Source: a virus
Length of the DNA: 23,487 bases
Strand: one strand, 5' to 3'
Virus record (IMG/VR): IMGVR_UViG_3300025131_000444
Coordinates: 1 to 23,487 of that record
The notes under the pieces were generated by a model. That model saw nothing but the letters and a program-made list of their open reading frames with translations, searched no databases and was not told the DNA's origin. Positions 5,804-23,487 of this stretch are shown here, in pieces. Within the stretch, counting starts at the first letter, position 1, and each line of letters begins with the position of its first letter. Both the position numbers and the translations under genes were made by a program.

Positions 5804-6082
5804 ATGAATGATAAAGATTACGAATTGATCGGTGAGTCCATTTGGGACACTTATAGAAACATGAGTTATATTTTAGCTGAAGGAATTTTGGGAAGGCTGA
5901 AGCGTAAAGTATTTGGAAGTGGAAAAGGAGCCGATACCGCTAAGAAATCAACTGCTCTTGAAGATACCCTCTCCAAACAAGGTAACCCTAAACCTAAAAA
6001 AACTAAAAAAGAAACGCCAGAAGAAAGAGCAGCCCGAATAGCTAGAGGCTTATCGGCTGCAGCGCAGTACGGTGACGCTTAA
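5804..6082 (+). CDS. Small basic protein with prohead-protease-like site, inserted inverted in the polymerase locus
   Basis: A 92-residue protein on the strand opposite the surrounding polymerase pieces. AGAGG lies 5 bases before the ATG and a good promoter just upstream. Residues 1-26 are mixed and end in SYILAE; the rest (GILGRLKRKVFG, then KPKKTKK and an Arg/Ala-rich tail) is strongly basic. The junction LAE followed by G matches the consensus cut site of the T4 gp21 prohead protease. Its layout (short leader, cut site, basic body) resembles T4 internal proteins, so I infer a packaged DNA-associated protein; there is no direct homology I can name. The stop codon overlaps that of polymerase part 1 in a shared TTAA. 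No HNH, GIY-YIG or LAGLIDADG motif is present, so a homing endonuclease is not supported. Confidence 0.7.
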   Translation: MNDKDYELIGESIWDTYRNMSYILAEGILGRLKRKVFGSGKGADTAKKSTALEDTLSKQGNPKPKKTKKETPEERAARIARGLSAAAQYGDA

Positions 6083-7101
6083 AGATCTTCTAGTTCAGAA
6101 GAGAAGTAAATCTTAACTAGATCCATCAAGCTCTTCGGAACATTCTCGTCAATAAAGTGGTGCATAATCTTAGTGTCCCATACATTCTTCGTATAGATTC
6201 CGTAGTTAATCAGGAACTTTAGATCGAATTTAGCATTGTGAAAGACCTTCCTGTTCTTAGGGTTCTCTAAGATACGCCGAAGAAGAACCCAAACCCTTGC
6301 GTAATCTGGTTCTCCCTTTCTAAAGGGACTATCTTTATGATCCAGAGGAAGTACCCAAGTATTATCTTGAGAAGCGAACGCTATAGTTTGGATGCTATCT
6401 GTAAGGAAGTTTAGTCCTGTAGTCTCAATGTCTATTGCTAAAGTCTCCTCACTCTCCTGCAAATTAGTTGCAAGCTCCTCCACATCTTCTATACGCATTA
6501 GCGTTTGGTAGGTAAAGTCCCCTTCAGCCTTTTTGCCAAGTACATATTTTTCATATGCATTTTGGATGTCCTTTTGGAATAGGAAACGGTGGCGAGGCTC
6601 CTTAATACAGGCATAAGGATGAAAAATAGGCACAACGATACAGCTATGCCCTCCAGTAGTGATATATTCATAAGATTTTCCTCTCTTGTTTGTGATGCCA
6701 CTCTTCTTGATCAGCATCTTCATGGCTAAGTTCCCACAAGGGAACACTAGTTTAGGCTTTACCTTATCAATGGTAGCCTCTAAGTGTACGCGACATATTT
6801 TCATATTGTCTGGGGTCATGTCTGCTTCTCTAGTATCAGGACATTTTACAGACGCTGCACATATAAAAGGCTCTTTATATGCTTCCTTTATTAGATTTAG
6901 TTCGGCCTTCAAGAATGGAAAGGTTCCTCCAAACTTATATTTAAGAGAGTCCGATAAAAAGAGTGCTGGACATTCATCCAACTGCTCATAATCCATGATA
7001 GAATTACAAGGTTTATTCTTAGAAAGGATAGTACACCCTTCACAAAGAGGATTCTCTCCCTTAAGTTTATGATCGGAATATAAATTATCTAAATCAAACA
7101 T
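6079..7101 (-). CDS. polA: Family A DNA polymerase, part 1: UDG-like domain and 3'-5' exonuclease motifs I and II
   Basis: A 340-residue chain. Residues 1-190 look like a family 4 uracil-DNA glycosylase: Cys20-x2-Cys23 and Cys87-x15-Cys103 have the spacing of that family's iron-sulfur ligands, and IFHPY at 159-163 recalls its second motif. The usual catalytic GEAPG loop is replaced by SDSLK, so glycosylase activity is doubtful. Residues 221-300 hold exonuclease motif I (AIDIETTGL, Asp224 and Glu226) and motif II (HNAKFDLKFL, Asn289 and Asp293). Motif III is missing and is found in part 2. Family 4 UDGs are known to resemble the N-terminus of phage SPO1 DNA polymerase, so parts 1-3 together rebuild an SPO1-type enzyme. 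The chain ends in the linker between motifs II and III. Confidence 0.88.
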   Translation of the reverse strand: MFDLDNLYSDHKLKGENPLCEGCTILSKNKPCNSIMDYEQLDECPALFLSDSLKYKFGGTFPFLKAELNLIKEAYKEPFICAASVKCPDTREADMTPDNMKICRVHLEATIDKVKPKLVFPCGNLAMKMLIKKSGITNKRGKSYEYITTGGHSCIVVPIFHPYACIKEPRHRFLFQKDIQNAYEKYVLGKKAEGDFTYQTLMRIEDVEELATNLQESEETLAIDIETTGLNFLTDSIQTIAFASQDNTWVLPLDHKDSPFRKGEPDYARVWVLLRRILENPKNRKVFHNAKFDLKFLINYGIYTKNVWDTKIMHHFIDENVPKSLMDLVKIYFSSELEDL

Positions 7102-7114
7102 ACTATGATAGGGT

Positions 7115-7465
7115 ATGAAAAATCATTACATCAACAACAAAGAATTTGAGCGTATCATTATATCATACCAGCAAGACCCAGAAAATTACGAGGAAGAGCT
7201 AGTTTCTTTATTTGATCTTCTGATTACGAACATAATAGAATCATTTAGATTCAAAGTTGACCCTGATGATGCGAAACAAGATTGCTTCGCTCTAGTCCTA
7301 AAGACGGTAAAGAATTTTAAACCTCGAAAAGGCACAGCATTTAATTACTTTACTACCATTGTAGTAAATAATCTAAAATTACTTTACACTAGAGAAAAGA
7401 AATACAAACAAAAGATCGAAAATTATATTGAAAAGTATAAAAACGATAACAATCAATCTTTATAG
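7115..7465 (+). CDS. gp55: Late-transcription sigma factor, gp55-like, short form
   Basis: A 116-residue protein. The start HYINNKEFERII resembles the T4 gp55 N-terminus (NYVNNKELLQAI), and the middle (DAKQDCFALVLKTVKNF, then AFNYFTTIVVNNLKLLY) looks like the core-binding and -10-recognition part of region 2 of sigma-70-like factors. It is shorter than T4 gp55 (185 residues), and the C-terminal portion that contacts the sliding clamp in T4 is not evident. It would direct host RNA polymerase to TATAAATA-type late promoters, and one perfect copy lies at 19052-19059. It is divergent from polymerase part 1 and its 3' end overlaps the next, convergent gene by 13 bp. The ribosome-binding site is weak (TAGGGT). 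Confidence 0.75.
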   Translation: MKNHYINNKEFERIIISYQQDPENYEEELVSLFDLLITNIIESFRFKVDPDDAKQDCFALVLKTVKNFKPRKGTAFNYFTTIVVNNLKLLYTREKKYKQKIENYIEKYKNDNNQSL

Positions 7466-7779
7466 ACGCGCAGAGATTTCATCACCATAGGTAAGTAATC
7501 TTCTGAATAGGTGAAGTCGCGCCTTAGCTGAACCAAATGAGGAACTTTATTAGTCTCATATATAACAAAGCTGTGGGGCATATTAAAACTATCCACTATG
7601 TAGAGAGGTTCTCCTCGCTCTCTACCTTCATACCTCTTCTTCAGTTTTTCAATAAGTTTTTCCGAGTGCTGGTCCCACAAAGAAATGAACAAGATGCTTA
7701 TATTATTTCTATCTCGTTTATTTCTTTTTATAATTTTATTAAGTTCATTCTCTTTATCGAGAAAGCGTAATTGAAACAT
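7453..7779 (-). CDS. Thioredoxin-fold-like protein lacking the redox cysteines
   Basis: A 108-residue protein with an apparent alternating strand-helix pattern. SILFISLWDQHSEKLIEKL fits the first strand and active-site helix of thioredoxin, but where WCxxC is expected there is WDQHS. NKVPHLVQL fits the cis-proline loop and following strand. No cysteine occurs anywhere, so it cannot be a dithiol oxidoreductase; a binding or scaffolding role is possible. It overlaps the sigma gene's 3' end by 13 bp and begins 2 bp after the upstream minus-strand gene stops, so those two genes are probably co-transcribed. The fold is an inference from pattern only. Confidence 0.55.
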   Translation of the reverse strand: MFQLRFLDKENELNKIIKRNKRDRNNISILFISLWDQHSEKLIEKLKKRYEGRERGEPLYIVDSFNMPHSFVIYETNKVPHLVQLRRDFTYSEDYLPMVMKSLRVYKD

Positions 7780-7781
7780 AA

Positions 7782-8201
7782 TTATTTCTTATTAGTGTGT
7801 TTACGAATAGCGTTATCATGTAATACCGAGTCTTCTATAGTTCCTGCGCCAGAAACGGCTTGCTCCAAGTCTTCAGTCGAAGCTAGTTTAATTTCTCCGT
7901 CATCTCCTTCAAGGACAGTAATCCCAGACGATGCAAGGTCTTCTTTATTTTCTTTTGCATACTTCTGTACCAAATCAGCAAGCTGCTTGTTCATTCCTTC
8001 AATTCCTGTAAGGAATACAGTTTTGAGGAAGTCCTCATCTGATACTTCTTCTGGTTTACAGACCGAAGCAAAGTTCTTGAAGGCAATAGCCTCGTCCTTA
8101 GATAAATTTATTTGTAGTCTCATACGATTGTTTCTCCGTTCACGAATTTTTATTTTCCAAGCGTCAACATCAATTCTTATTGCAGTTTGGGTGCTATTCA
8201 T
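7782..8201 (-). CDS. Conserved-looking phage protein of unknown function
   Basis: 139 residues from the ATG at 8201. Recognisable features are a basic N-terminus (KIKIRERRNNR), a compact central part starting RMRLQINLSKDEAIAFKNF and continuing through helical segments, and an acidic C-terminal third. A second start at Met27 (8123) has a better ribosome-binding site (GGAGA about 9 bases upstream) and would give 113 residues; the longer form has none. A minus-strand TATAAT at 8208-8213 could start the transcript just before 8201. I do not recognise the family; the beta-helix pattern near MRLQINLSK could suit a ribbon-helix-helix DNA binder, but that is speculative. It pairs with the thioredoxin-like gene downstream. 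Confidence 0.7.
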   Translation of the reverse strand: MNSTQTAIRIDVDAWKIKIRERRNNRMRLQINLSKDEAIAFKNFASVCKPEEVSDEDFLKTVFLTGIEGMNKQLADLVQKYAKENKEDLASSGITVLEGDDGEIKLASTEDLEQAVSGAGTIEDSVLHDNAIRKHTNKK

Positions 8202-8206
8202 TTTAC

Positions 8207-8220
8207 TATTATAGACTGAG
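8207..8220. promoter_or_regulatory. Divergent promoter element between 7782-8201 and 8230-8742
   Basis: The 28 bp between the two divergent genes hold TATTATAGACTGAG on the plus strand; the complementary strand reads CTCAGTCTATAATA, giving a perfect TATAAT toward the minus-strand gene. No good -35 box is visible either way. The same TAGACTGAG string recurs at 11706-11714, and TAGACGAG at 5785-5792. Confidence 0.4.
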
Positions 8221-8229
8221 GATTACAAT

Positions 8230-8742
8230 ATGGAAGACAATTATGATTTTTCTAAGCTAAAAAAGAAAAAGAAGGTTAACAGTAGAGCTAAGGGCAGCAC
8301 CTTTGAACGGCAGATAGCCAAGCTACTTAATAATAGATTCAACACCACAGAATTTTCAAGAACTCCTGGATCTGGTGCATTCGCCACTACGCATACTCTA
8401 CCTGACTACTTAAAAATATATGGAGATCTAATAACACCTATTAAATTTAAATATTGTATAGAGTGTAAAAAAGGATACAATAAGGAAAACTTATATAGTC
8501 TATATAATTATAGTTCAGACACCTGGAAATTTATAGATCAATGTCAAAAAGATTCGGACAAGTGCGACAAGATTCCGATGGTCATCTTCAAGCAGGATAG
8601 ACACCCTACACTAGCTATAGTACCCTCAAATATCCCCTATCAAGCCACTAACTTCATAGAAATATATAAAGAGGGGAAAGTATATAGAGTATATTTATTT
8701 GATGATCTACTTAAAGAAGCTGACTCATGCTGGTTGGAGTAA
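8230..8742 (+). CDS. PD-(D/E)XK nuclease, possibly Holliday-junction-resolvase-like
   Basis: A 170-residue protein with the nuclease core motifs in order: KGSTFERQIAKLL (Glu26), FSRTPGSGA near 42-50, YGDLI (Asp66) and CIECKKGY (Glu78, Lys80). A basic N-terminus (KKKKK) may help DNA contact. The pattern of an early helix Glu, RTPGSG, GD and ExK is typical of Hjc/RecU-like resolvases and related endonucleases; which substrate it cuts cannot be told. TGAGGA about 9 bases before the ATG is a good ribosome-binding site. It is transcribed against its neighbours, and its last 32 bp overlap the end of the 982-residue gene tail to tail. It could process recombination intermediates made by gp46/gp47. 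Confidence 0.75.
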   Translation: MEDNYDFSKLKKKKKVNSRAKGSTFERQIAKLLNNRFNTTEFSRTPGSGAFATTHTLPDYLKIYGDLITPIKFKYCIECKKGYNKENLYSLYNYSSDTWKFIDQCQKDSDKCDKIPMVIFKQDRHPTLAIVPSNIPYQATNFIEIYKEGKVYRVYLFDDLLKEADSCWLE

Positions 8743-11659
8743 GTAATCTCTCTAATAATCTTTGTTGTCCTGCTAAGAACTGAAATAAAAGACCTTCCTC
8801 TTTCACAATAATTTCCCCTCTTTTATCTGTTACGAAATTTCTCTTTGGGGATGAAACATATTCATCTGCGAATTTAGCTTGAGATCTAGTTTGGCGTTGC
8901 TGACTCTCAGTTCCTTTAGTTCCTGACCAAGTACCTTCTTGGCTCCAAGTCATTACTTTTTGCCCATCTACTATATAAGTGGCTGTATCGCCTTCTATAC
9001 TTATCTCTAATCTAGGATTCCCATCTTTATCTATAGCTCCTCGCGCATCTGCTATAGCTCTCATAGGCTCATTTTGAGACCAGCCAATAACTTTACCATC
9101 ATTGGTCCCCTTAATTTGAGCCATCTCAGATTCATTGTACCCACATATTAGTAAATTTCTAATAAGGTAGTTCTCAACCATATCTTTTTTATTTGGATCA
9201 TTTAAATCTCTTTTTAATGCCCGAAATCTAGCTTCTCTTTCCATGCCTTCTTGAACTCTTTCTTGGACTACTCTATCAGAATACTTTCTACTCTTCCCAT
9301 TAATAAAAAATAGCTTAGCAAATTTACTTTTCATCAGTGCGGCCCAGCTTAATTTTCCAGTAATAATTTCACTAGCCATTTTTAAGTGTTGTTCAGGCGT
9401 AGCAATTTTGACTTTTCCGTTTTTATCTACATAGGTTGTAGTTTCTGCAAACCCAGCAGTTGCATGAGAAACTTCCGTTTCTAATTCATCATTATACTGT
9501 AACATTGCTGCAAAATCTGAATCTTCAACTCCATTTTCATCTACTTCAGGACCGAATCCTTGTACTTCTCTTATTCCAGTAAAGAATCCTGGGGTAGGGT
9601 CAGTAGAATCTTGTCTGAAGTATCCATCTCGTACAGCCTCAGTATTAATTTCCCCTGCTTTAGTATTGCCAGCCTTCTCCATCCTCTTTTGACCGAAGGG
9701 CATAAGGTAGACTTGTTGCCCTGGTTTTATATTTAAATCATCCAATCTCTTTTGTACCGAAATTTTAGATTTTGGTGTAGCATTATTAATGATATCGTCG
9801 TAAGTTGTAGGTTGTACCGAAGATCGACTATCTTTGGCAGCCACAGCAGCCTGATCTGGATCTATAAATAAAAGAGCATTATCTGCCCTTGCTCCAGTAC
9901 GAGGCTGTAGTCCTAGGTGGACTGTACCTACTACTCCCTCAATACTTCCTAGCCATTGATCCATAGCCTTTGCTTCCGACAGTATCCAAATTTTTAGTTT
10001 TTCTCTGCTTGTAGCTATACCATACATCTCAGCAGCTTGTTCTGCATCCATGTAAGATTGCATATCTACTGATCCTCCTCGCTCTAAGGAATTATTCATT
10101 ATCTGTTCAAGCATAGGAGTGTCCTTTTCAAGAATAGTTTCTTGAATAAACTCTGTTAGCTCTTGATGGATCTTTTGGTATTTTGTATCTTTTGTATCTC
10201 CGTTTGCAGCATCATAGGCTTCTCTCATTCTTCGAAGTAAAATAGATATTTGGGGGACTCTCTCATAAAGAGTACCTTTGATAGCATTCTTATCATTCTG
10301 TCCAATAGATAGATTTAATACTTGTCTAAGAGGACTAACCTCATCTCCTTTTTCCCCACTAGCAATGTCTGGGGTCCAGTCCGTGTCTGGGCACTCTGAT
10401 CTTAATTTTTCTAAAGCAAATCTCTGAAGGGGGTTTGGAGTAATAACTACTCCCTCAGAAGGAATGCTAGTATCCGCTCCCATCTCCCCAAAGAATATTA
10501 ATTTTTCCTTACTTCCTCTTCCATGTAATCCTACCCTAGTTAGAATTGTCTCACACCTATCTGCCTCTGCCTCCGAAGCAGGAGCTAAAAAACTTAGAAG
10601 TTGTGAATTAGCTTCTACCGCTTCCGATCTTAATCCAGCACTTATTTTACACTTACCTGCTGTATCTATTTTTCCTTTATCATCTAGACAAAAAGTACTA
10701 TCCCCATTAGCAAGTTTATATTCTAAACTTCCAACTGTAGATCCTGCAATATAACTGATTGGATTTTTACAAATATTATCCCATTGTGCTTTTAAATTAT
10801 CATTCTCGGAAGAATTTATTTGGTCTCTACAAAAACTGTCCACAAATTTCATTTGTTGTAAGTACTCTGATTCTTCAGTATGAGATACAGCGGGGTTATT
10901 AGTTTTTAGAGATGCATCATATTCTTCTTGTGCTATTCCTTGTGCTGCGAGGAGTGTTTGAGTATGGTTTAAGGTAGCATTCTTCTCCCCCCTCCCTTCT
11001 ACTTGTACAGCAATAGATTCTCCATCTACCATCCAACCATCGTCTTCTATTTCCTTTACTCTATTAAGTCTCCAAGCCCCCCCAATTTCTGCTGCGGCTT
11101 TTGCCTCAAAGTCTGCGATGGCTTGTTGTTCTTCTCTCTTTCTTTTAGTGGCCTCATCCTCACTATCTGGATCACTACCCCCTTCTCCATCTCCTGATAG
11201 CTTTTCAATAAAATCCTGCTTTCGTCCTGCTGCTTTCTGTACATCTTTATCGTATTTTGCTTGGGCAGTTTCAGTAACCTTTCCAGCCGCAGTAAGTTTT
11301 GGGCTACCTCCCATTTGTACAGTCCCCTTCCCGCTTTTCTCTCCACCGTATAAATTTACTACAACTACATCCCCTTGGGGGTTTCTATAAATAGACATCT
11401 CCGTAGGCTTTCCATTTACACCCATTACTGGAACAGCGTCTGCTGTGGCTGCATTAATCGCATTATTTGCTATAGTCGCCCCATCCTCAAAGGCAAGATC
11501 ACTTGGGGGTGGAGGTGTCTCCTCTTGTGTCTCCTTCTTCTTGGCTTTTGGTTTAGCTTTTGGTTTAGCTTTAGCTTCAGCCTCACTAATATATTCCAGC
11601 TTAAAAGTCCTCTTTTTAAGCTTATTGTAGCTTTCTAATAACTCATTAAAATAGTCCAT
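8711..11659 (-). CDS. Large virion-associated protein candidate, 982 residues, unknown function
   Basis: I do not recognise this protein. The first 26 residues (MDYFNELLESYNKLKKRTFK, then LEYISE) are followed by AEAKAKPKAKPKAKKK, a lysine-alanine-proline repeat. ISE followed by A matches the T4 prohead-protease consensus, so the N-terminus may be a capsid-targeting peptide removed at maturation. Residues 130-200 are charged and probably helical; no membrane segment, nuclease or peptidase motif stands out. The C-terminus is hydrophobic and helical (FQFLAGQQRLLERLL). It follows the tail genes after a strong terminator, with candidate promoter boxes in the 80-bp gap; AGGG about 12 bases before the ATG is a poor ribosome-binding site. 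A large internal or ejected protein is my best guess. Confidence 0.75.
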   Translation of the reverse strand: MDYFNELLESYNKLKKRTFKLEYISEAEAKAKPKAKPKAKKKETQEETPPPPSDLAFEDGATIANNAINAATADAVPVMGVNGKPTEMSIYRNPQGDVVVVNLYGGEKSGKGTVQMGGSPKLTAAGKVTETAQAKYDKDVQKAAGRKQDFIEKLSGDGEGGSDPDSEDEATKRKREEQQAIADFEAKAAAEIGGAWRLNRVKEIEDDGWMVDGESIAVQVEGRGEKNATLNHTQTLLAAQGIAQEEYDASLKTNNPAVSHTEESEYLQQMKFVDSFCRDQINSSENDNLKAQWDNICKNPISYIAGSTVGSLEYKLANGDSTFCLDDKGKIDTAGKCKISAGLRSEAVEANSQLLSFLAPASEAEADRCETILTRVGLHGRGSKEKLIFFGEMGADTSIPSEGVVITPNPLQRFALEKLRSECPDTDWTPDIASGEKGDEVSPLRQVLNLSIGQNDKNAIKGTLYERVPQISILLRRMREAYDAANGDTKDTKYQKIHQELTEFIQETILEKDTPMLEQIMNNSLERGGSVDMQSYMDAEQAAEMYGIATSREKLKIWILSEAKAMDQWLGSIEGVVGTVHLGLQPRTGARADNALLFIDPDQAAVAAKDSRSSVQPTTYDDIINNATPKSKISVQKRLDDLNIKPGQQVYLMPFGQKRMEKAGNTKAGEINTEAVRDGYFRQDSTDPTPGFFTGIREVQGFGPEVDENGVEDSDFAAMLQYNDELETEVSHATAGFAETTTYVDKNGKVKIATPEQHLKMASEIITGKLSWAALMKSKFAKLFFINGKSRKYSDRVVQERVQEGMEREARFRALKRDLNDPNKKDMVENYLIRNLLICGYNESEMAQIKGTNDGKVIGWSQNEPMRAIADARGAIDKDGNPRLEISIEGDTATYIVDGQKVMTWSQEGTWSGTKGTESQQRQTRSQAKFADEYVSSPKRNFVTDKRGEIIVKEEGLLFQFLAGQQRLLERLLTPTSMSQLL
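11541..11582 (-). repeat. 12-bp coding repeat for the Ala-Lys-Pro-Lys tract
   Basis: Near-perfect tandem copies, read on the plus strand as GGTTTAGCTTTT, encode AKAKPKAKPKAKK at residues 28-41 of the 982-residue protein. Slippage could change its length. It directly follows the predicted protease site. Confidence 0.75.
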
Positions 11660-11676
11660 ATTATATTATAGCCCTA

Positions 11677-11719
11677 AGAAAAATTAGGCCCAGCCCATTT
11701 ATATATAGACTGAGCCTAA
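11677..11719 (-). terminator. Intrinsic terminator after the tail tube gene
   Basis: Read on the minus strand, TTAGGCTCAGTC pairs with GGCTGGGCCTAA in a 12-bp stem with two G-U pairs (arms at 11708-11719 and 11684-11695), followed directly by TTTTTCTT. On the plus strand the two wobble pairs become C-A mismatches, so it favours minus-strand transcription. It would end the gp13-to-gp19 transcript before the 982-residue gene. Confidence 0.8.
11696..11703 (-). promoter_or_regulatory. Candidate late promoter (7/8 match) before the 982-residue gene
   Basis: TATAAATG on the minus strand, one base from the T4 late promoter TATAAATA. It lies in the loop of the terminator hairpin 37 bp before the start codon. 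A TATAATATAAT run just before the ATG is an alternative -10. Weak evidence alone. Confidence 0.3.
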
Positions 11720-11739
11720 GTATTTTCACTACTTAACTC

Positions 11740-12330
11740 TCAGGGGTTAGAGTAGTTGAACTGATTCATGAAATCGTACTTGAAGGTCACATCTATAGTG
11801 TGGAAATCGTTGGTTGCATAGTTAAATTCAGATGCTGCCCACTTAGTAGGCCAAACGCCATAAACTTCTACAGTAGAGTGAGGCACCATAGTATTATCAA
11901 GCATAACAATTTCAGCCTTTGCAGCCTTAAAGGTGTTTCCTAACCCCCCTCCAGGCTGAGAACTCTTACTCATTTCACCAGTAATGGGATCGTAGGTATG
12001 CTTAAAGTATCTCCATAGATCACTAGCAGTTTCTCTAAGATACAAGTTATCAAAAGTAACTACTAAGTCTCCAGGAGTAACCTTGCCAGGATAGTGGATC
12101 TTGTCATTAACTCTATCAATTACGATGGGCTCTGAAGCCATCTCCAACCCAGTAATCTTTTTAGCAGCAAGGGTGAGGTCTGTTTCTCCAGTTACATCAG
12201 AAGGTAATCCCAAAAAGTGAATTTCAAACTGATATGTTCTAACTGAATCTAAATCAGTAGAAATTAGGGGTAGACCCTGACCAGGAGTGAAGTTTCTCCC
12301 GTAATAATTTTTATAATATGATTGCGCCAT
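11740..12330 (-). CDS. gp19: Tail tube protein, gp19-like
   Basis: A 196-residue protein that would stack as rings to form the inner tube of the contractile tail. Supporting features are RTYQFEIHFLGLP near residues 31-43, the ITGLEMASEPIVIDR segment, a KIHYPGKVTPGDLVVTFDNL stretch typical of T4-like tube subunits, and a C-terminal KYDFMNQFNYSNP. Slightly longer than T4 gp19 (163). It begins 10 bp after the sheath gene stops, with AGGAAATTAATT as ribosome-binding site, which is the usual sheath-tube gene order. A terminator follows. Confidence 0.88.
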   Translation of the reverse strand: MAQSYYKNYYGRNFTPGQGLPLISTDLDSVRTYQFEIHFLGLPSDVTGETDLTLAAKKITGLEMASEPIVIDRVNDKIHYPGKVTPGDLVVTFDNLYLRETASDLWRYFKHTYDPITGEMSKSSQPGGGLGNTFKAAKAEIVMLDNTMVPHSTVEVYGVWPTKWAASEFNYATNDFHTIDVTFKYDFMNQFNYSNP

Positions 12331-12340
12331 AATTAATTTC

Positions 12341-14539: not shown

Positions 14540-14550
14540 AATTTATTCTC

Positions 14551-14727
14551 CTAAGCGTTTGAAATCTTAAATATTCTTCGTCTGTGAAGAGTTTGAATTT
14601 GTTCTGTGATATAGTGATCAGGCACTACAATACTTTCTCCTGGCTGCATCCACTTTTCTCTATTACCCTTTTCCGTACCAAAATAAATGGTGAATGCCTG
14701 AAGGCTATCATTTTTAACTAGTTTCAT
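14551..14727 (-). CDS. Small conserved-looking protein upstream of the sheath gene
   Basis: A 58-residue protein, MKLVKNDSLQAFTIYFG at the start and HRRRIFKISNA at the end, with a WMQPGESIVVP stretch in the middle. AAGGAG stands 8 bases before the ATG, a strong ribosome-binding site, and the stop is 11 bp before the sheath ATG. The product is small, basic at its C-terminus and without membrane segments or cysteines. I do not know its function; the position suggests a tail or connector accessory. Its PGE-centred layout is loosely like that of the 71-residue protein at 18847-19062. Confidence 0.75.
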   Translation of the reverse strand: MKLVKNDSLQAFTIYFGTEKGNREKWMQPGESIVVPDHYITEQIQTLHRRRIFKISNA

Positions 14728-14793
14728 ATCTTTATCTCCTTATTATCTACCCAACGAGTTCACTTTTTTTGAGAACTTTTTTTATACCGTGCT
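14728..14793 (-). promoter_or_regulatory. Candidate late promoter (7/8 match) before the 58-residue and sheath genes
   Basis: This 66-bp gap holds TATAAAAA on the minus strand (14779-14786), one base from TATAAATA, then an A-rich stretch with a weak inverted repeat (GTTCTC and GTGAAC around a run of seven A). It may start a separate sheath-tube transcript; the match is not strong. Confidence 0.3.
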
Positions 14794-15615
14794 TTAAGTG
14801 CAGCCATTTGCATCGTAGATAGCACCGACCTCAATCACAGGAACCGAATTCTTTTCATCAGTTTCTTTTACTTCCTTATCTATATCTGCATGCATAGTAA
14901 ATCCACGGGGGTGGGAGGATGTTACAATCGACCAGTGAGGATTGAGAATTCCTAGATCATGTGGGGGAACTATTCCTGGCTTATCAGTCTGGGGATCACT
15001 AGGTAATACTAGCGTTCCAGTAACTTGCGCTCCCGCAGGTATAACTCCTTGCCGTACTTCACCTCTCAAAATAGGCCACTTTCCGTCGTATTTTCCATCA
15101 TCACCCCTAACCCAGTAAAAAGTCTGACCTATATTTGTAAACCAATCCATTTCCCATAACCCAATATTAAACGGTCCCACAGGTACACTACTATTGTTAG
15201 TTACTGTATAGGAAAAGGTAACATCTCCCGTGTACCACCAACAGTTCTGATTACTACCCGATCCTGGAGGGTTCTTTGTATTTGTGTAATACGGACCACC
15301 ACCACCAATTGCGTCAAGGGTAAGATCAAGATCAGGCGCAGGATCCCCACCATCACCACATAAAACATCTTGGCTTTCATTCTCAGTAGTCTCGGCTGCG
15401 TGAGAACCATCAGGCCCGTGAGTATCAATTAAATCCCCAGGTAAAGAAACTTTGTATCCCTCTACAAAAACACTATCGCTTCCTCCATTAATCAGCCCAC
15501 CCGCTGTATCTATCCCTGCCCTGGTTATTCCCTTACCATTTGCTTTTACTGTAGTAGATCCAGTATTGGCATCTCCACAACTAGCAAGATCCCCTTTTCG
15601 TTCAACTCCTGGCAT
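14794..15615 (-). CDS. PAAR-like tail spike tip protein with C-terminal beta domain
   Basis: A 273-residue protein. Residues 1-88 resemble PAAR-repeat proteins that sharpen the tip of a contractile-tail spike (T4 gp5.4): MPGVERKGDLASCGD, a middle Gly-rich turn, SDSVFVEGYKVSLPGDLI and DTHGPDGSHAA. Candidate metal ligands are Cys13, His66, His72 and Cys86. T4 gp5.4 has only about 97 residues; here a second domain (roughly 100-273) follows, with FSYTVTNNSSVPVGPFNIGL typical of CARDB/Ig-like beta sandwiches. The extra domain might bind the host surface or a cargo. The gene starts 4 bp after gp15 ends, within the tail cluster. Confidence 0.65.
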   Translation of the reverse strand: MPGVERKGDLASCGDANTGSTTVKANGKGITRAGIDTAGGLINGGSDSVFVEGYKVSLPGDLIDTHGPDGSHAAETTENESQDVLCGDGGDPAPDLDLTLDAIGGGGPYYTNTKNPPGSGSNQNCWWYTGDVTFSYTVTNNSSVPVGPFNIGLWEMDWFTNIGQTFYWVRGDDGKYDGKWPILRGEVRQGVIPAGAQVTGTLVLPSDPQTDKPGIVPPHDLGILNPHWSIVTSSHPRGFTMHADIDKEVKETDEKNSVPVIEVGAIYDANGCT

Positions 15616-15619
15616 TACA

Positions 15620-17318: not shown

Positions 17319-17321
17319 TTA

Positions 17322-17975
17322 CTAATCGTCTTTTTGTAGTCTCTTTAAATTTGCTGCTGCCTTTTTAGATCCACTACCAGCAGCTACGGATGCTAATGCT
17401 ATATCTTTCTTTTTTTTGTCGTCATTAGCTTTCTGTTCTGCTCGGCTCCTTCTTTTCTTAATCCCCCTTACGGTTGCATCCCTAGACTCAGCAGTTGTAG
17501 GATTGCGCCTAAATTTATTTGGTTCTCGACCATATCTGCTTTCTGCTAATTTTCTTACATAAGCGTTAGAGCTTCTAGGCTCTTCATCCTCAACTCTTAA
17601 AGCTTCGGCTAGAACATATCCTAGTCTGTGATATTCAGTGCTGTCCTTTAGAGCTTTCTTCGCTCTTTTTGATCCACTACTAGCGGCTACTTGAGCTAAT
17701 ACTCTCTTCCTAGTTCCTGGCTTTGATCCTTGTAATTTCCTTCTCTTTCTAGTAGTAGCCCTTTTCAGGTTCCTCTTTAGTCTTGCCTTGTCCCAAAATT
17801 CCTTGTCTGGATAATCCCCTCCTCTAGCCGCTTCAGCATCCTTTTCGGAGTGGTGAGGTCCTCCCGCTTCTCGTTCCCGCTCATCACTAGCCACACTTTC
17901 GGGCTCCTCTGTGCTGTACAGGCTCGGATGGCTGCGTTTAGCCTCATTCAACTTTCTTTTTTTAAAATTTTTCAT
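17322..17975 (-). CDS. Basic internal-protein-like protein with prohead-protease sites
   Basis: A 217-residue, very Lys/Arg-rich protein. It begins MKNFKKRKLNE followed by A, close in form to the T4 internal-protein targeting peptide MKTYQEFITE followed by A, where the prohead protease cuts. Another consensus site, LAE followed by A, lies at 122-125 inside STEYHRLGYVLAEALR. A 19-residue module repeats: VLAQVAASSGSKRAKKALK (92-110) and ALASVAAGSGSKKAAANLK (193-211), 12 of 19 identical. No enzyme motif is visible. The gene sits between gp13 and gp14, 9 bp and 3 bp away. I infer a DNA-binding protein packaged in the head, cut into peptides at maturation; no specific homologue is recognised. Confidence 0.7.
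   Translation of the reverse strand: MKNFKKRKLNEAKRSHPSLYSTEEPESVASDEREREAGGPHHSEKDAEAARGGDYPDKEFWDKARLKRNLKRATTRKRRKLQGSKPGTRKRVLAQVAASSGSKRAKKALKDSTEYHRLGYVLAEALRVEDEEPRSSNAYVRKLAESRYGREPNKFRRNPTTAESRDATVRGIKKRRSRAEQKANDDKKKKDIALASVAAGSGSKKAAANLKRLQKDD
17343..17399 (-). repeat. Second copy of the internal SGSK module
   Basis: Codes residues 193-211 of the basic protein. It is 12/19 identical in protein to the copy at 17646-17702 and visibly similar in DNA (GATCCACTAC and GCTAC shared on the plus strand), so it is probably an internal duplication. Confidence 0.6.
17646..17702 (-). repeat. First copy of the internal SGSK module
   Basis: Codes residues 92-110 of the basic protein and directly precedes its STEYHR peptide. 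Partner of 17343-17399. Confidence 0.6.
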
Positions 17976-17984
17976 AATACTTTC

Positions 17985-18863
17985 CTAATACATCGTGAAC
18001 ACTGGTGGTTCTTCAATTTCGAAAAGAAGTTCTTCTTTGAGAGTTTCTTTTTCTTTTACACTCTGATCTGACAGAGCTTGTCCATTTAATGCTGCCCCTC
18101 CACCAGGGGAAGGCAGTGTTTTATATTTCCCTCTTACCTCTCCAAGAATTCCTTTAGACACAGCTAAAGCAAATCTTTGAATCCAGTTCTTGTAGTAAGG
18201 ATGTAAGGTTCCTGCATCCAAAGCTCTGTAAACTAGAATACAGGTCTGATTGTTCTGTACAGGAGTGGGGTATAGCTGTAGAACATTGCCATTAATAACA
18301 TCCCAAGCTCCTTCCTGACCTAAAACCTTTCTCATTGTCTCTAGACTCTGTTGTAACAGGTAGAAGTCTGAGATACTAAAGTTACTGAATAAGAAGTTGT
18401 CTTGGAAGTATTTAATAAAGAAATCATACTCCAAGGTTCCTGTCATGTTCTGAATGCTCAATAAAGATTTCTTATATACCACATAACTAAGGTTGTTAGC
18501 TATGTGCATCGGAAGTAAGTACCTGTTTTGTCCTGCGGAACATTCAAATGCAGCCTGTTGTTCGCACCAAAAGGGAGCATGATAATCTAGGTTAGTTATC
18601 GCTTCATCTATTGCAGTCTTAACTTGAAAATCTGTTAGCTCTACTCTAACAACTGGATGCCCTAAACGAGCAAGAATAAAATCTCTAATAGTAGTTTCAA
18701 ATCTAGTTAGTTCTACTGGATCTGATAGAGTTCCTGTATTAAGTTTAGAGCTATCAATGGCTGTAGAAAATATATCTGTATCCCCCAAGTCCCTACCTCC
18801 ATAGGAACCAAAGGTATCTCCATACCCTAACAATCTGGGATCAACTCTAGCTGCTGCTGCCAT
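17985..18863 (-). CDS. gp13: Neck protein, gp13-like
   Basis: A 292-residue protein. TIRDFILARLGHPVVRVELT at 58-77, TDFQVKTAIDEAI at 77-89 and, near the C-terminus, RFALAVSKGILGEVRGKY followed by SPGGGAALNGQAL and a helical KEKETLKEELLFEI are the features I associate with the T4-like gp13 family, which completes the head and links it to gp14. Length is close to T4 gp13 (309). It overlaps the 71-residue gene upstream by 17 bp and is followed within 9 bp by the basic protein. Confidence 0.8.
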   Translation of the reverse strand: MAAAARVDPRLLGYGDTFGSYGGRDLGDTDIFSTAIDSSKLNTGTLSDPVELTRFETTIRDFILARLGHPVVRVELTDFQVKTAIDEAITNLDYHAPFWCEQQAAFECSAGQNRYLLPMHIANNLSYVVYKKSLLSIQNMTGTLEYDFFIKYFQDNFLFSNFSISDFYLLQQSLETMRKVLGQEGAWDVINGNVLQLYPTPVQNNQTCILVYRALDAGTLHPYYKNWIQRFALAVSKGILGEVRGKYKTLPSPGGGAALNGQALSDQSVKEKETLKEELLFEIEEPPVFTMY

Positions 18864-19062
18864 TTAATTCTTCCTTATTTTCTTTTACTACTTTCTTTTT
18901 TGGCCGACCTTTCTTTTTTACTATAGGACTGCTAAGTACTTGTAAGTATCTAGAGTTCACAAAAGTTTTTGATTCAAATAATTCACCTGGGCGAATCTCA
19001 ATAATCTCATTCTCCAAATGAATAAGCATATTCCATCTACATTTACTTTTATATTTATACAT
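18847..19062 (-). CDS. Small protein with AT-hook-like KKGRPKKK tail
   Basis: 71 residues from the ATG at 19062, with AGGG five bases upstream. The C-terminus has VKKKGRPKKKVVKENK; GRP flanked by lysines is the AT-hook minor-groove-binding pattern. The N-terminal half is beta-like (MLIHLENEIIEIRPGELFES). A second start at 19029 (Met12) would be used if transcription begins at the TATAAATA box that lies inside the first codons (19052-19059). First gene after the MCP terminator; it overlaps gp13. Role unknown, possibly head-associated. Confidence 0.65.
   Translation of the reverse strand: MYKYKSKCRWNMLIHLENEIIEIRPGELFESKTFVNSRYLQVLSSPIVKKKGRPKKKVVKENKEELNGSSS
19052..19059 (-). promoter_or_regulatory. 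T4-type late promoter TATAAATA
   Basis: A perfect eight-base match to the T4 late promoter, on the coding strand, right after the terminator that follows the capsid gene. It is the only exact minus-strand copy I found. It would start the neck and tail transcript near 19046 and fits the gp55-like sigma gene at 7115. Confidence 0.5.
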
Positions 19063-19090
19063 GAATACCCTATTGTATATAGGAAGTGAA

Positions 19091-19126
19091 TGAGGGCCAG
19101 AAGAACAAAATTTCTTCTGACCCTCA
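19091..19126 (-). terminator. Hairpin terminator after the major capsid gene
   Basis: A 15-bp stem (TGAGGGTCAGAAGAA and TTCTTCTGGCCCTCA on the minus strand) with a 6-base loop. The single non-Watson-Crick position is a U-G pair in minus-strand RNA but a C-A mismatch in plus-strand RNA, so it is oriented for the capsid transcript. The U-tract is poor (TTCACTT), so it may act as an attenuator or RNA-stabilising 3' end. Confidence 0.65.
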
Positions 19127-19148
19127 TGTTAATTTAAATTAATTTAAA

Positions 19149-20825
19149 TCAGTCACCCGCAGTTCCCAGGTTCGTCGTATTCTGAGCGAACGGTGAGAAC
19201 AGGTAGTTACTCGTAGGACCAATAATACGCACGATTCTATAGAATCGGTTGTACGGTTCAATAGTAACTTTACCGTAGCGAGTTAAGATACCCTTCCTGG
19301 GCTGGAAGGTCTCTGGGTCAACAATGGTAGGCAGTTGCTGGAGAGGGATATAGGGGCAATAGCAATACCCAGAATCCATCGCATTAGCACCTTTGTAACC
19401 GACGAGAATTTCATCCGTAGGATACATCGGATCAACATACAGGTCGTAGCGACCCATAAACTTGCCTTTATACTCAATAGAGTTTCTACCAATATTGGTA
19501 GGACCATCAGCAGGTTGCACACCACCCTCAAGCTTCGAAGCACTCTCTAAGAGAGAAGCAACGAGAGGAGAGGTGAGGAGCCAATTACCAGGACCACGCA
19601 TAGTGGTGCGGTAAATATCTTGCGAAGCGAGGTTAATAATCGCCAGCAAGTTAGCATACACTTCGCCAACATGACGAGGATAAAGGCTAAGAGAAGACTG
19701 ACTAAAATCAATCACGAAAACATTAGAGGCTTGCTTCGTAGCACCAAGCGCAGTATCTGTTCCCGTACCTTGGGCTCCATTGAAGTCGTAAGTAAACTGA
19801 GCAGGAACAAACTGAGTTGCTCCAGCAGCACTATCCAAGCCAGGGAATACTCCATTACCTCTGTTACCAAGATCAATGTAATCATTGTCAGTTAATCTCA
19901 GATCAACACCACCTTCGTTCGTCTTGTGACGACCGTAAGCAATCATGCGAAGATCTTCAATGAGTTCACGGTCGATCTCAAGCTGAAGTTCCTTCGAAAG
20001 AAGATCCGTAAGCTCACGCTCAAGATCAAGGTTGTGATAAGCCTTAAGGTCTTGAGAAGCCTCAAGAGTCCAAAGGGCTCTCATCTTACGAGTGTTAGCC
20101 ACAACAGCTTCCTGCTCGATGTGGAAGGTCATTTCAGGAATACCCGTACCACTCAGACGCTCACCACCAGATAGGTTATAACCCATCACAGCATTAGCGT
20201 TGGGGAAGGCAGCAATTTGACCACCCATCGTCCCAGAGCCAGCACCAGTACCAAAGAAGGGCTCACTACCACTCGGGCCAGCAGCCAGAACATTGGACAC
20301 ATCGAAACCGCTTTGAGCTTGATCGCCGTCAAGACCATTGGAAGTTCCTCGCGTACCAGTAACACCGAAAGTACCGGGCCATCCAGCGTTAGCATCTCCT
20401 TGGGTTCCAAGGGCACCAGCAGACACAGAACCAATATCAGAAGCAGTCAGACCTCTGTAGGTCAGGTTGAACTTGCTGTAGACAGTTTGAATGTCAGTAC
20501 CAGAAGCACGGTCGTTACCCAGATAAAAGACCTGAGAAACAGGTCCCTGCATGGGCTGAACGCCAACCAGTTGGTTAGCTAAAAGTTTCGGGTAAACCCG
20601 ACGAACTAAGGGAAACGCAAATTTTTGGAAAGTTCCGAGTTGACCAGTTGTAGTGGTCGCAGCGGAAATAGCCTCATTCATGTTAAGTTTATCTTCAACG
20701 ATTGATTTAGCTTGGTTTTCAAGAAGTTGTGCAGTCACTCTACGGGTATAGTCATTATCAATACCCTCAAGCACAGGCTCCCACTTCTGGACAAGCGTAT
20801 CATCAGTTTGATGCATTACATCCAT
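19149..20825 (-). CDS. gp23: Major capsid protein, gp23-like
   Basis: A 558-residue capsid subunit. LVQKWEPVLEGI near the start, RRVYPKLLANQLVGVQPMQG and VSQVFYLGNDRA near 75-105 match the T4 gp23 N-domain (KWKPLLEG, RRAIPNLIAFDICGVQPM). The C-terminal region (VGYKGANAMDSGYCYCPYIP, then TRYGKVTIEPYNRFYRIV) matches gp23's end. A prohead-protease site, MNE at 49-51 followed by A, would release a propeptide as in T4, where cleavage follows residue 65. AAGGA lies 10 bases before the ATG, and the scaffold gene ends just upstream. A hairpin follows the stop. Confidence 0.96.
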   Translation of the reverse strand: MDVMHQTDDTLVQKWEPVLEGIDNDYTRRVTAQLLENQAKSIVEDKLNMNEAISAATTTTGQLGTFQKFAFPLVRRVYPKLLANQLVGVQPMQGPVSQVFYLGNDRASGTDIQTVYSKFNLTYRGLTASDIGSVSAGALGTQGDANAGWPGTFGVTGTRGTSNGLDGDQAQSGFDVSNVLAAGPSGSEPFFGTGAGSGTMGGQIAAFPNANAVMGYNLSGGERLSGTGIPEMTFHIEQEAVVANTRKMRALWTLEASQDLKAYHNLDLERELTDLLSKELQLEIDRELIEDLRMIAYGRHKTNEGGVDLRLTDNDYIDLGNRGNGVFPGLDSAAGATQFVPAQFTYDFNGAQGTGTDTALGATKQASNVFVIDFSQSSLSLYPRHVGEVYANLLAIINLASQDIYRTTMRGPGNWLLTSPLVASLLESASKLEGGVQPADGPTNIGRNSIEYKGKFMGRYDLYVDPMYPTDEILVGYKGANAMDSGYCYCPYIPLQQLPTIVDPETFQPRKGILTRYGKVTIEPYNRFYRIVRIIGPTSNYLFSPFAQNTTNLGTAGD

Positions 20826-20842
20826 ATTAATTTATCCTTATA

Positions 20843-21484
20843 TTAAGATTGAGAGAAGGGCATGAACTTCATGACCTCATCCGTTAAAAATTCATTATTG
20901 GAATGAACTCTTTCTTCGTTAATCTCTCTATCAGCTTGAGATACAACGATAGCTTTTTCCGATGAGACAAATGCCTCCTCCTTAGAAGCCTCTAAGTTTT
21001 CAACCTCTTCAAGAAGTTGGAAATTTTGCCCCTCAAGTTCACTGACAGATTGTTCGGTGAGAGATAATTTACTTCCAAGAACTTTGATAGTTCCTTGAAG
21101 TTTTTCATTCTCATTAACGAGTGCGTCTACTTGTTCATCAAGAACGCTAAACTCTTCCTGTAATTCACCATGCTGACTGGTCATTTCAGAAAGAGCATTC
21201 TCTTCATCACTGTCACTTAGCTCAAGAGCCATTAAAGTTCTTACCGACTCAAAAAGTCTTGCATTACGGAAGACTTCGCTTTCTTCGGAAAGCTCGGTAA
21301 AAGCTTGATCTTTAAGTTGGTCAATTTTATTACGGAGATAGGCATTAACCTTAGCCTCCAACAAACCGATCTTCTCTTCTACTTGTTCGTTTATAGTAGA
21401 ATCTACCATCTCGAAAATAGCTTCGACGGTAGATTCGTTTAATCCTTCAGGTAGAATATCGGCAATATTCTTTATATCATTCAT
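20843..21484 (-). CDS. gp22: Prohead core scaffolding protein, gp22-like
   Basis: A 213-residue acidic, largely helical protein (MNDIKNIADILPEGL at the start), with a predicted coiled coil from about residue 90 to 175 (LQEEFSVLDEQVDALVNENE and following). This layout, and its place directly before gp23, match the T4 gp22 core scaffold, which shapes the prohead and is then digested. LLE followed by A near 41-44 is a prohead-protease site. I chose the ATG at 21484 over 21505 because AGGAG sits eight bases before it; the longer form adds seven residues and lacks such a site. Confidence 0.85.
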   Translation of the reverse strand: MNDIKNIADILPEGLNESTVEAIFEMVDSTINEQVEEKIGLLEAKVNAYLRNKIDQLKDQAFTELSEESEVFRNARLFESVRTLMALELSDSDEENALSEMTSQHGELQEEFSVLDEQVDALVNENEKLQGTIKVLGSKLSLTEQSVSELEGQNFQLLEEVENLEASKEEAFVSSEKAIVVSQADREINEERVHSNNEFLTDEVMKFMPFSQS

Positions 21485-21505
21485 AAATAGTTCTCCTAGG
21501 TTCAT

Positions 21506-21559
21506 TATTATCTATTAGTTTAATATACAAAATTGTATTTTTTTTTAAAAATGTATGAG
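21506..21559. other. AT-rich gap before the scaffold gene
   Basis: A 54-bp spacer with the AT-only palindrome TACAAAATTGTA next to a run of nine T on the plus strand. No exact TATAAATA box is present; TATATTAA on the minus strand is a poor match. Possible regulatory leader for gp22 and gp23. Confidence 0.3.
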
Positions 21560-21931
21560 TTACTTGTCATCATCATTTTTAGAGGGTTTCTTTCGTGTTC
21601 GTGCTGATCTAGCTGGTCTTGTCCTAGCTGGTCTAGCTGGTCTAGCTGGTCTAGCTGGTCTTGTCCTAGTTGATTGAGTATTAGTTTCTGGAGCATCAGC
21701 AGCCCGTCTTCCTCCAGAAGCAGATTCAGCAGATTTCCCTTTCGAACGACTAGTCGCACCGTGCTTCATAGCTCTTGCGTACCCTTTCTGTTGCGCTAGT
21801 CCAGCAAGAAACTCTCTTGAATAATGCCGTGATATTCTCACGCCAAGTCCACCCTGTGCTGACGGTTTCTTAGTCATAGATGCTTCTAACTCACCTGTGA
21901 ACTCTGCAAGTAATCTTTTTATGAATGACAT
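21560..21931 (-). CDS. Small basic protein with Ala-Arg-Pro repeats
   Basis: A 123-residue protein. The N-terminus MSFIKRLLAE followed by F resembles the targeting peptide plus cut site of internal proteins, although the residue after Glu is not the usual A/G. The middle is Gly/Ser/Arg-rich, and the C-terminal third is an RTRPARPARPARPARTRPAR tract ending in an acidic KNDDDK; such tails resemble DNA-condensing, histone H1-like sequences. It starts one base after the previous gene stops and precedes gp22, the region where T4 has gp67 and gp68 core proteins. It is probably a head core or internal protein; no homologue recognised. Confidence 0.7.
   Translation of the reverse strand: MSFIKRLLAEFTGELEASMTKKPSAQGGLGVRISRHYSREFLAGLAQQKGYARAMKHGATSRSKGKSAESASGGRRAADAPETNTQSTRTRPARPARPARPARTRPARSARTRKKPSKNDDDK
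21609..21659 (-). repeat. 9-bp tandem repeat coding Ala-Arg-Pro
   Basis: Five copies of CTAGCTGGT (plus-strand reading), four of them perfectly in tandem at 21624-21659, with further degenerate units beyond. They code the ARP tract and could expand or contract. Confidence 0.85.
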
Positions 21932-21932
21932 T

Positions 21933-23487
21933 TTACTGTAGTATTTCTGCTAATAAAGATCCGAATCTGTGGTATTCAGTAGAAGTTAGTTGTAATTGAG
22001 CGCGTCTTTGCTGTCCAAGCTTACCTGGAGTCTGTCTTCCTGCTTTAGGTCTTGGACCTCCTCCTTCGTCGGGAGAAGCTCCAGATTTCGAACCATATTT
22101 CCTCATGTGAGCTTGCGTTTTCAATCTATCCGCATAGTCTGGGCTAACTCTTGCCGTTGACCTTTCCCCAGAACTGCTTGGTACAGGTTTTTTAACACCT
22201 CTGGCTGCAACATGTGCTGATCTATCAGCACTAGCAGCAGCAATCCCTCCTCCTTTTAGACCTTGACCATGCCGTTGGCCTGATCTACCACCAGCAGCGA
22301 CCTTCTTGAGAACATCTGGGTCTCTCTTACTTGCACCTCTTCCTAATTGTAGTGGTTTTTTATCTGGAACTACTTCGGCTTCCACCTCCCTAGGAGGTTG
22401 TTTACCCGCAGGAAGTTGAGGCTGCCCTGGATGAGGAGCCCCGTTTCTTCTCTGGTCTGGTTGCTCTTCCCTATGTTCTGCTGGAACTTTCGGAGGTGTT
22501 TTCGATGGACGAGAACCATCCCCTCCTTTATCTCTTGGTCCAACACTAACTCCAGGTCTATCTCCTTGTGCTTCAGCACTAGGCTTCCCACCAGCCACCC
22601 CACCCTTTTTGGTTTCAAGCTCTCCTGCTCCAGGACCGTGCCTTGTAACCTTAAGTGAAGCCATAGCTCTTTTTCTCTGTCCAGGCTCAAATTCCTTATT
22701 TCTAGCTGCTGTTCTTCTAGCCTCGGCCTTTTCCTCATCTCCTTGTGCAAGCCCGGATTGACGGCGTTTTTCTGTGTCAAGAATATCTTTCACCTCTAGA
22801 TTTTCTTTCCTCTTATCCATATACTTTTCACCAACAGCTTCTTTTGCCGCTTTACCGAATCTCTTAATAGCCTGACCAGTCCCTGTAGCTGCATCAACTG
22901 CGGTTCCATGCACCTTGGACTTAAGCCTTTCTGTCTTGTCCCGCCTTACTTCTCTATGACCTCTACGGGTATCTGCCGCAGCTTCATCATCGGCTCTCCT
23001 AATCTTTCTCCTAGATACATCATCTTCCCTTGATTGCTCTCCAGCATGCTTCCTACTCGCCCTACCTTCCTCTCCAGCAGCGGTAACATCTAAAGCTCTT
23101 TCTGTTCCTTTAGCCTCAATTTCCTCAGTACCCTTCTTTCGGAAGCCAAGAGTTTTCCAAGATCTGCCTCCAGATTTAATTTTAGCTGCCTTCCGATTAC
23201 CCTTCTCAGTTTCAATTTTTTCTTGCGCGGCAGCCATACCTTTTGCTGCACCTCCAGCCGCTCCTTTAATCTTAGTGGCCTTACCTTCAGCCTCTGCTTC
23301 TCGCTCAACAGTACCTTTCCACTTCCTGAATCTGGTTTCACCAGTCCTCTGCTGTGTATCCTTAAGATCTTGTTTTCTACTAGCGGCTCTTGTTTTCTTA
23401 ATTCTTCGCGTATCTTCTTTGGTTTTATACTTCTCAAATCTCTTCGCTGTTCTTAGAGTGGATCTATGGTGCTTCCGTAATCCTCGT
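21933..23487 (-). CDS. Long Lys/Arg-rich protein, N-terminus beyond the window, C-terminal STEYHR motif
   Basis: The reading frame is open past the ATG at 23237 up to the right edge with the same basic character (KWKGTVEREAEAEGKATKIK, then GAAGGAAKG), so the real start lies outside and at least 518 residues are visible. It is rich in Arg, Lys, Glu, Gly and Ala with no hydrophobic core, and appears disordered. It ends in TSTEYHRFGSLLAEILQ, nearly the same peptide as in the gene at 17322-17975. The stop is one base before the next ATG. It lies upstream of the scaffold gene, in the head cluster. I infer a DNA-associated head protein; nothing enzymatic is visible and I do not recognise a family. 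Confidence 0.75.
   Translation of the reverse strand, partial: RGLRKHHRSTLRTAKRFEKYKTKEDTRRIKKTRAASRKQDLKDTQQRTGETRFRKWKGTVEREAEAEGKATKIKGAAGGAAKGMAAAQEKIETEKGNRKAAKIKSGGRSWKTLGFRKKGTEEIEAKGTERALDVTAAGEEGRASRKHAGEQSREDDVSRRKIRRADDEAAADTRRGHREVRRDKTERLKSKVHGTAVDAATGTGQAIKRFGKAAKEAVGEKYMDKRKENLEVKDILDTEKRRQSGLAQGDEEKAEARRTAARNKEFEPGQRKRAMASLKVTRHGPGAGELETKKGGVAGGKPSAEAQGDRPGVSVGPRDKGGDGSRPSKTPPKVPAEHREEQPDQRRNGAPHPGQPQLPAGKQPPREVEAEVVPDKKPLQLGRGASKRDPDVLKKVAAGGRSGQRHGQGLKGGGIAAASADRSAHVAARGVKKPVPSSSGERSTARVSPDYADRLKTQAHMRKYGSKSGASPDEGGGPRPKAGRQTPGKLGQQRRAQLQLTSTEYHRFGSLLAEILQ

Follow-up and report, generated by a model that had tools for sequence, protein, structure and literature searches.

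Conserved head-processing-type tags on variable basic proteins and on the prohead protease itself suggest a T4-type cargo-targeting system in an uncultured phage clade

The stretch of DNA analysed here (the window) is the complete virus record IMGVR_UViG_3300025131_000444 of IMG/VR, 23,487 bases of a T4-like phage, and our subject is a set of short peptide tags in it that probably direct proteins into the phage head and mark them for cleavage by the prohead protease, gp21. Reading down the minus strand from position 23487, the window carries the end of a long basic open reading frame (ORF), a basic ORF of 123 amino acids (aa), the genes for a gp22-like scaffold and for gp23, a 71-aa ORF and a gp13-like adaptor, followed by a 217-aa basic ORF, p192, tail-sheath stabiliser-like, PAAR-like, sheath and tube genes, a 982-aa ORF and replication genes. 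There was no near DNA match to the window among 50,697 phage records, and the closest isolates by capsid protein are cyanophages, at about 30% identity. The phage is an uncultured relative of T4, and a probably marine one to judge by its relatives.

A sequence-only reading of the window had proposed that five proteins with sites following the L/I-x-E rule of T4 gp21 make up a T4-like set of internal proteins. Its five sites are all present where it had placed them: YILAE/G (E26) in a 92-aa protein (5804–6082, plus strand), KLNE/A (E11) with VLAE/A (E124) in the 217-aa protein (17322–17975, minus strand), YISE/A (E26) in the 982-aa protein (8711–11659, minus strand), RLLAE/F (E10) in the 123-aa protein (21560–21931, minus strand) and SLLAE/I (E514) in a partial 517-aa ORF (21933–23487, minus strand). 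Four of the proteins are basic, as it had said (isoelectric point, pI, 9.5, 10.3, 11.6 and 10.5), and the 982-aa protein is acidic (pI 5.1). The motif [LI]xE[AG] occurs five times in the five proteins, against 3.3±1.8 after shuffling, and [LI]xE 16 times, against 16.6±3.5; conserved scaffold, sheath and repair proteins of the window likewise contain [LI]xE[AG]. Raw counting was therefore dropped as evidence, and since the bare tetrapeptide is at chance level, the case must rest on comparison with relatives. Scanning IMG/VR with the capsid protein yielded 78 loci, of which L002 (99.8% identity over 14.3 kilobases) and L003 (99.2% over 8.2 kilobases) continue past the window end. This comparison supports four of the five sites, those of the 217-aa, gp21-tail and 92-aa proteins by a longer shared motif and that of the 982-aa protein by an E26 conserved in 26 of 26 relatives; the RLLAE/F of the 123-aa protein is unsupported.

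The long basic ORF at the window edge (21933–23487) had been taken for a separate protein. In L002 and L003 it belongs to a single 835-aa ORF, which rules out an independent gene and makes the window's part the C-terminal 517 residues, a hypervariable basic tail, of the gp21 prohead protease. This ORF and its extension are the gp21 homologue that the earlier reading had sought; a protease search confined to the window found no match because the record end cuts the ORF, leaving the catalytic domain beyond the window edge. The single ORF L002:1188-3695 contains PF03420 Peptidase_S77 (E 1.4e-21; 77.3 bits against a cut-off of 27) and phrog_207 (E 4e-47), and among 20 long relatives Peptidase_S77 gave one match in 17 and two in one. 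The protein also matches the solved chain 5jbl_A by profile (E 1.1e-15) and is 32% identical to T4 gp21 over 154 aligned positions of the catalytic core, while H72 and S125/S126, invariant in 34 relatives, align with the catalytic His and Ser of T4 gp21. These homologies, together with the same place before gp22 and gp23, assign the clade's gp21 to the T4-type Peptidase_S77 prohead proteases, and cleavage after L/I-x-E is predicted.

The tail sets this gp21 apart from that of T4. T4 gp21 has 212 aa and those of the isolates checked have 214–216 aa, whereas 41 of 42 closed gp21 ORFs among the relatives have 253–836 aa (the other is a short piece of 83 aa), with a basic, hypervariable C-terminal tail. 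Median pI is 5.6 for the catalytic part, which is thus neutral to acidic, and 10.2 for the basic tails. A tree of the catalytic domains separates the clade from cyanophages and T4; tail length shifts between close relatives in it (271 versus 447 aa, 253 versus 455 aa), where the internal forks are weak. The outgroup proteins measure 201 (G024), 275 (G023) and 425 aa (G021).

The longer motif, which we call type A, has the consensus [HWS]TxYxx[MIL]Gxx[LM]AE[AS]LG. A position matrix was built around its glutamate from the genes between gp13 and p192 only, and then applied to other loci. It found 28 sites in 34 non-redundant gp21 tails, 25 of which carry at least one (0–2 per protein), against a mean of 0.05 and a maximum of 1 after shuffling, and six sites in 15 ORFs lying between gp21 and gp22 (shuffled mean 0.01). 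None was found in the gp21 catalytic domains or in 13 of 14 classes of conserved neighbours, including capsid, gp13, p192, sheath, tube and scaffold; the PAAR-like class has one. In the window, type A scores 42.7 bits in the 217-aa protein (E124), 27.6 in the gp21 tail (E514) and 9.0 in the 92-aa protein (E26). The gp21 copy, STEYHRFGSLLAE (21945–21983, minus strand), was thus recovered with a matrix from another locus; it lies at the extreme C-terminus, followed only by ILQ and the stop, so that SLLAE/I, three residues from the end, is no N-terminal propeptide site. A second tag, type B (NxYVxKLME), is mostly limited to the gp13–p192 gene and scores 26.7 bits in the 217-aa protein (E145). The extended motifs exceed shuffled expectation by two orders of magnitude and are specific in position and locus. 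The counts overstate the number of events, because related contigs do not supply independent sites and some copies of type A have moved with exchanged modules; they speak for locus specificity and not for event number.

Known phages did not yield the tag. At the thresholds used, none was found around the head genes of T4, the cyanophages P-TIM40, Sf-CH1b and B23, and two environmental phage records, and a tblastn search with the bare tag gave no match among phage isolates. A six-frame scan of nearly the whole genome of Synechococcus phage S-RIM8 gave three scores above 10: one is an ORF-start artefact, and the other two fall in minus-strand ORFs over regions annotated with plus-strand genes. 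In the same phage, SXDG_00170 (L221:42993-44150), an enzyme annotated as a cytidyltransferase, begins MKKFSAFLTEAEK, a start that resembles a T4-type capsid targeting sequence. The longest outgroup relative, L171 (G021, 130,604 bases), combines a gp21 of intermediate length and basic tail with a 454-aa basic gp13–p192 gene that has a weak type A match only, and from it the tag may take other forms outside the main clade.

The 217-aa gene (17322–17975, minus strand) lies between the gp13-like gene and p192 and encodes a basic protein with the N-terminus MKNFKKRKLNE/A, type A and type B. Its counterpart is basic and hypervariable in nearly all relatives, and tblastn with the 217-aa protein matched three loci, where its neighbours matched 77 and 70. 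Replacement is seen directly in L004, which is 93.5% identical to the window over 21055–17960 and 91.2% over 17322–15418. At 17322–17975 it has a different, 104-aa gene, except for an island of 82 base pairs (bp; 17555–17636, minus strand) that is 90% identical and codes for type A and for the first part of type B. Other segments change place: the gp21 tail of L018 and the gp13–p192 gene of L025 share a stretch of 41 residues at 93% identity, and L076 has free-standing ORFs that are 75–87% identical to gp21-tail segments of L033 and L074. By these sequence matches, gp21 tails and other loci exchange modules. Except for the acidic 982-aa protein, the cargo has a median pI of 10.1–10.2, 20–24% lysine plus arginine and 18–22% ILMFVWY, against 28–38% in most conserved neighbours. 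The gp13–p192 gene also has an N-terminal module, MPLTSKGKKIMAAMVKQYGKQKGKEVFYASKNKGTIEGVE (L060:2430-3071 and others), that recurs in HMO-2011, HTVC033P and HTVC023P.

At the polymerase locus, the 92-aa basic protein (5804–6082, plus strand) had been placed within the polymerase gene. It is encoded on the opposite strand, as an insert between two polymerase ORFs and inside none of them. Residues 14–26 form a variant type A (WDTYRNMSYILAE/G) whose score of 9.0 was reached by 12 of 5000 shuffles. The protein shares the N-terminus xYExIGESIWDTYRxMxxxLAE with positional relatives: in G007, G005 (L137) and L151, inserts on the same opposite strand have the N-terminal pattern YExIGES[IVM]W[DN]TY[RK]xMxxxIAE, with small variations, and continue into differing basic sequence, and the inserts of L140 and L142 have a related WNTYRSMGALIAE. 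Both flanking polymerase ORFs are present at 72 loci, and at 38 of these an insert separates them (184–2287 bp, many without the motif). In the other 34 the first polymerase ORF stops directly before the second begins, and the polymerase of relatives is already in three ORFs. At the polymerase locus of L137 the 92-aa family has expanded locally, to three opposite-strand ORFs in tandem that share the tag-bearing N-terminus. The polymerase of the window (4217–7101), of family A, is itself split into ORFs at 6079–7101, 5295–5774 and 4217–5302.

The 982-aa protein (8711–11659, minus strand), with homologues at 31 loci, consists of a conserved N-terminus, a variable region and a conserved C-terminal domain. 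Its first 26 residues, MDYFNELLESYNKLKKRTFKLEYISE/A (11582–11659, minus strand), follow the consensus MDYFxELLxSYxKLKKRTFKLxYIxE. In an alignment of 26 distinct relatives, mean column entropy is 0.63 bits over residues 1–26 and 3.13 over residues 27–60; E26 never varies, and only I or L occurs at residue 24. Whole-length identity to the relatives is 20–39%, with the N-terminus the best-conserved part, a pattern that in the alignment resembles a propeptide on a diverging protein. No Pfam or PHROG match was found, and so no ADP-ribosyltransferase domain was detected; for the predicted fold (mean predicted local distance difference test score 67.6), Foldseek found no solved structure at E<=0.001 and one weak match, to an uncharacterised S-RIM8 protein.

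The 123-aa protein (21560–21931, minus strand), between gp21 and gp22, is very basic (pI 11.6) and begins MSFIKRLLAE/F. It gives no score with either motif matrix, type A or type B, and has homologues only in two near-identical contigs. Other ORFs at the same position begin with type A (MNNTYKNIGLIIAEALNL).

A further candidate tag lies in gp21 itself. Just past the catalytic domain, at about residues 199–205, 29 of 34 distinct gp21 proteins have a hinge of the form Y..[FWIL][ILV].E, typically AYQPWIEEA, and the pattern occurs 0 times in the 11,197 residues of the tails. The hinge of the window's own phage, YQPFIEEA, is identical at six of eight positions to YQEFIAEA of the T4 internal protein (IP) IPIII in the T4 record, a likeness reached by 4 of 5000 shuffles. 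In IPIII, targeting is reported to depend mainly on residues 4 and 7 and processing on residues 8 and 10, and T4 gp21 and Alt to undergo C-terminal processing (PMC9026906); the SPN3US protease is reported to remove a 64-residue C-terminal propeptide (PMC10052503).

What the sequences show is a protease, tags that are conserved, cargo that is variable and basic, a fusion of part of this cargo to the protease, and swapping of segments. We consider the probable explanation to be a head-targeting and maturation system of the T4 type that an uncultured T4-like clade has elaborated, with cargo that turns over and is partly fused to the protease. Four tag forms (type A, type B, the gp21 hinge AYxP[WF][IL]EE and residues 1–26 of the 982-aa protein) would bring otherwise unrelated proteins into the prohead core by binding the core or the protease. 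The tagged cargo would comprise the gp13–p192 gene, the polymerase-side insert, the gp21–gp22 ORFs, the long gp21 tail and the large acidic 982-aa protein. As in T4, gp21 would cut after the tag glutamate, and it may release its own tail at the hinge. More tentatively, the basic pieces might remain in the head with the DNA, and some might be ejected to counter host defences or act on the host. T4 offers parallels: IPI is reported to inhibit a restriction system and IPIII to be required on one natural Escherichia coli strain (PMC9391042). In a more far-reaching version, which we regard as possible and hold tentatively, gp21 would be the front end of a self-processing cargo polyprotein: having entered the prohead, it would sever itself at the hinge and cut its tail at the tags. 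The resulting basic peptides would be packaged alongside the DNA and reach the host with it, and the cargo segment would be freely swapped, both from phage to phage and from the gp21 tail to other loci or back. The internal-protein set first proposed thus stands as to its gp21-type protease, its unrelated basic proteins sharing a head-processing-type motif, its scattered loci and its fast turnover, the last two being what T4-like internal proteins would lead one to expect; one member is the protease tail, one is acidic, one site (123 aa) lacks comparative backing and the tetrapeptide is at chance level.

Several observations weigh against this picture, in addition to the non-independence of the sites. 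Type A is missing, at the threshold used, from 9 of 34 gp21 tails and 10 of 55 gp13–p192 ORFs, and from the outgroups G023 and G024, with a weak match only in G021. Its tyrosine stands nine residues before the glutamate, against six in T4, and the cargo proteins match no known family. An AlphaFold model of whole gp21 (predicted template modelling score 0.38) has low confidence outside the catalytic core, and docking of the tag in the active site was not interpretable. Packaging, cleavage and injection are predictions from sequence comparison.

The main rival holds that the tagged pieces are core material that leaves the head: like T4 gp67, gp68 and most of gp22, they would build the prohead core, be chopped by gp21 and exit, with no delivery. 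Two of the loci flank the head genes, gp21 is itself a core protein, the neighbouring u67, u68 and gp22 bear [LIM]xE[AGS] near their N-termini in most relatives, and T4 core fragments are reported mostly to leave the head (PMC9026906). True core proteins are, however, conserved across the clade, and the tagged ones are replaced between close relatives; one tagged gene sits at the polymerase locus in only some genomes and looks like accessory cargo. We find a purely structural role rather unlikely. Less likely still is that type A forms a helix that docks on a partner in the virion or the host and is left uncut by gp21, with the LAE ending a coincidence. Its conservation does extend 9–12 residues upstream of the glutamate, beyond what the L/I-x-E rule needs, and in gp21 the motif can lie 3–7 residues from the C-terminus, where a cut would free almost nothing. 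But in its L/M-A-E-A/S core the motif agrees with the gp21 rule and with the capsid and core sites of the clade, T4 targeting sequences are described as joining docking and cutting in one peptide (PMC9026906), and a helix that docked without being cut would still be a targeting tag.

The L004 island, 90% identical in DNA inside a replaced gene, and the movement of modules between loci could also be read as recombination junctions for cargo swapping, kept as DNA and not for protein function. We think this very improbable given that the motif occurs at non-homologous loci and on both genome strands, and that particular residues of it (Y, G, LAE) are conserved beside neighbours that differ. That the motifs are merely chance L/I-x-E sites in low-complexity basic proteins is scarcely credible: the bare tetrapeptide is indeed unenriched in the window and the 123-aa site is unsupported, but apart from that protein the excess of the extended motifs over shuffles and their specificity refute it.

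The product of 20843–21505 (minus strand) is acidic and coiled-coil; having no confident family match, it is assigned as gp22-like scaffold by its position between gp21 and gp23, its composition and its conservation in 63–64 loci. The major capsid protein gp23 (19149–20825, minus strand; phrog_138, E 3.4e-85) has a clade-conserved candidate processing site, [LMI]xE/(A/D/S), at E51 (NMNE/A) in an N-terminal alignment of 47 relatives. The gp13-like head-tail adaptor matches phrog_211, and a PAAR-like protein (14794–15615; phrog_281, E 4e-4) has the sheath stabiliser-like gene on one side and the sheath on the other.

In kind, targeting tags are already known, as are packaged internal proteins and prohead proteases that undergo processing at the C-terminus. 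Like IPI, IPII and IPIII of T4, the proteins described here are small, basic and variable, lie at scattered loci, are poorly conserved between relatives and have a short N-terminal or leading tag ending L/I-x-E/A. Type B and the gp21 hinge share the T4 spacing (Y at -6, a hydrophobic residue at -2, E at 0), whereas in type A the Y is at -9, a G stands at -5, and the motif often lies inside the protein or at its C-terminus; several tags occur together in some clade proteins, and part of the cargo is fused to the protease. Measured against the ten-residue N-terminal tag of T4 (aromatic at 4, hydrophobic at 8, E at 10), type B would fit as MNxYVxKLME if Met precedes, although it is usually internal; the spacing of type A differs, and the 982-aa tag has 26 residues. 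In plan, the 982-aa protein comes closest to T4 Alt, a large, non-basic protein with a processed N-terminal propeptide, but searches by sequence and by fold matched it neither to Alt nor to any known enzyme. Among the prohead proteases and inner-body/ejection proteins of phiKZ and SPN3US, too, the protease is reported to shed a C-terminal propeptide by autocleavage and many packaged proteins to have cleaved propeptides; unlike in the clade, the SPN3US protease propeptide has 64 residues, cleavage is at A-x-E and the propeptides are N-terminal, and the available portions of these accounts describe no hypervariable cargo tail on the protease (PMC5694885, PMC10052503). Neither the type A tag nor a protease extended by exchangeable basic cargo hundreds of residues long was found in the accessible portions of the open-access literature or in the isolates checked.

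The internal proteins of T4 are known counter-defence cargo that is hard to find, as its members share only a short tag. Here, a tag readable from the genome would list the candidate injected proteins of a whole uncultured phage clade, part of which sit on the maturation protease itself. An address label would be expected to leave just such a trace as is seen in L004, where the cargo has been replaced and the tag has stayed.

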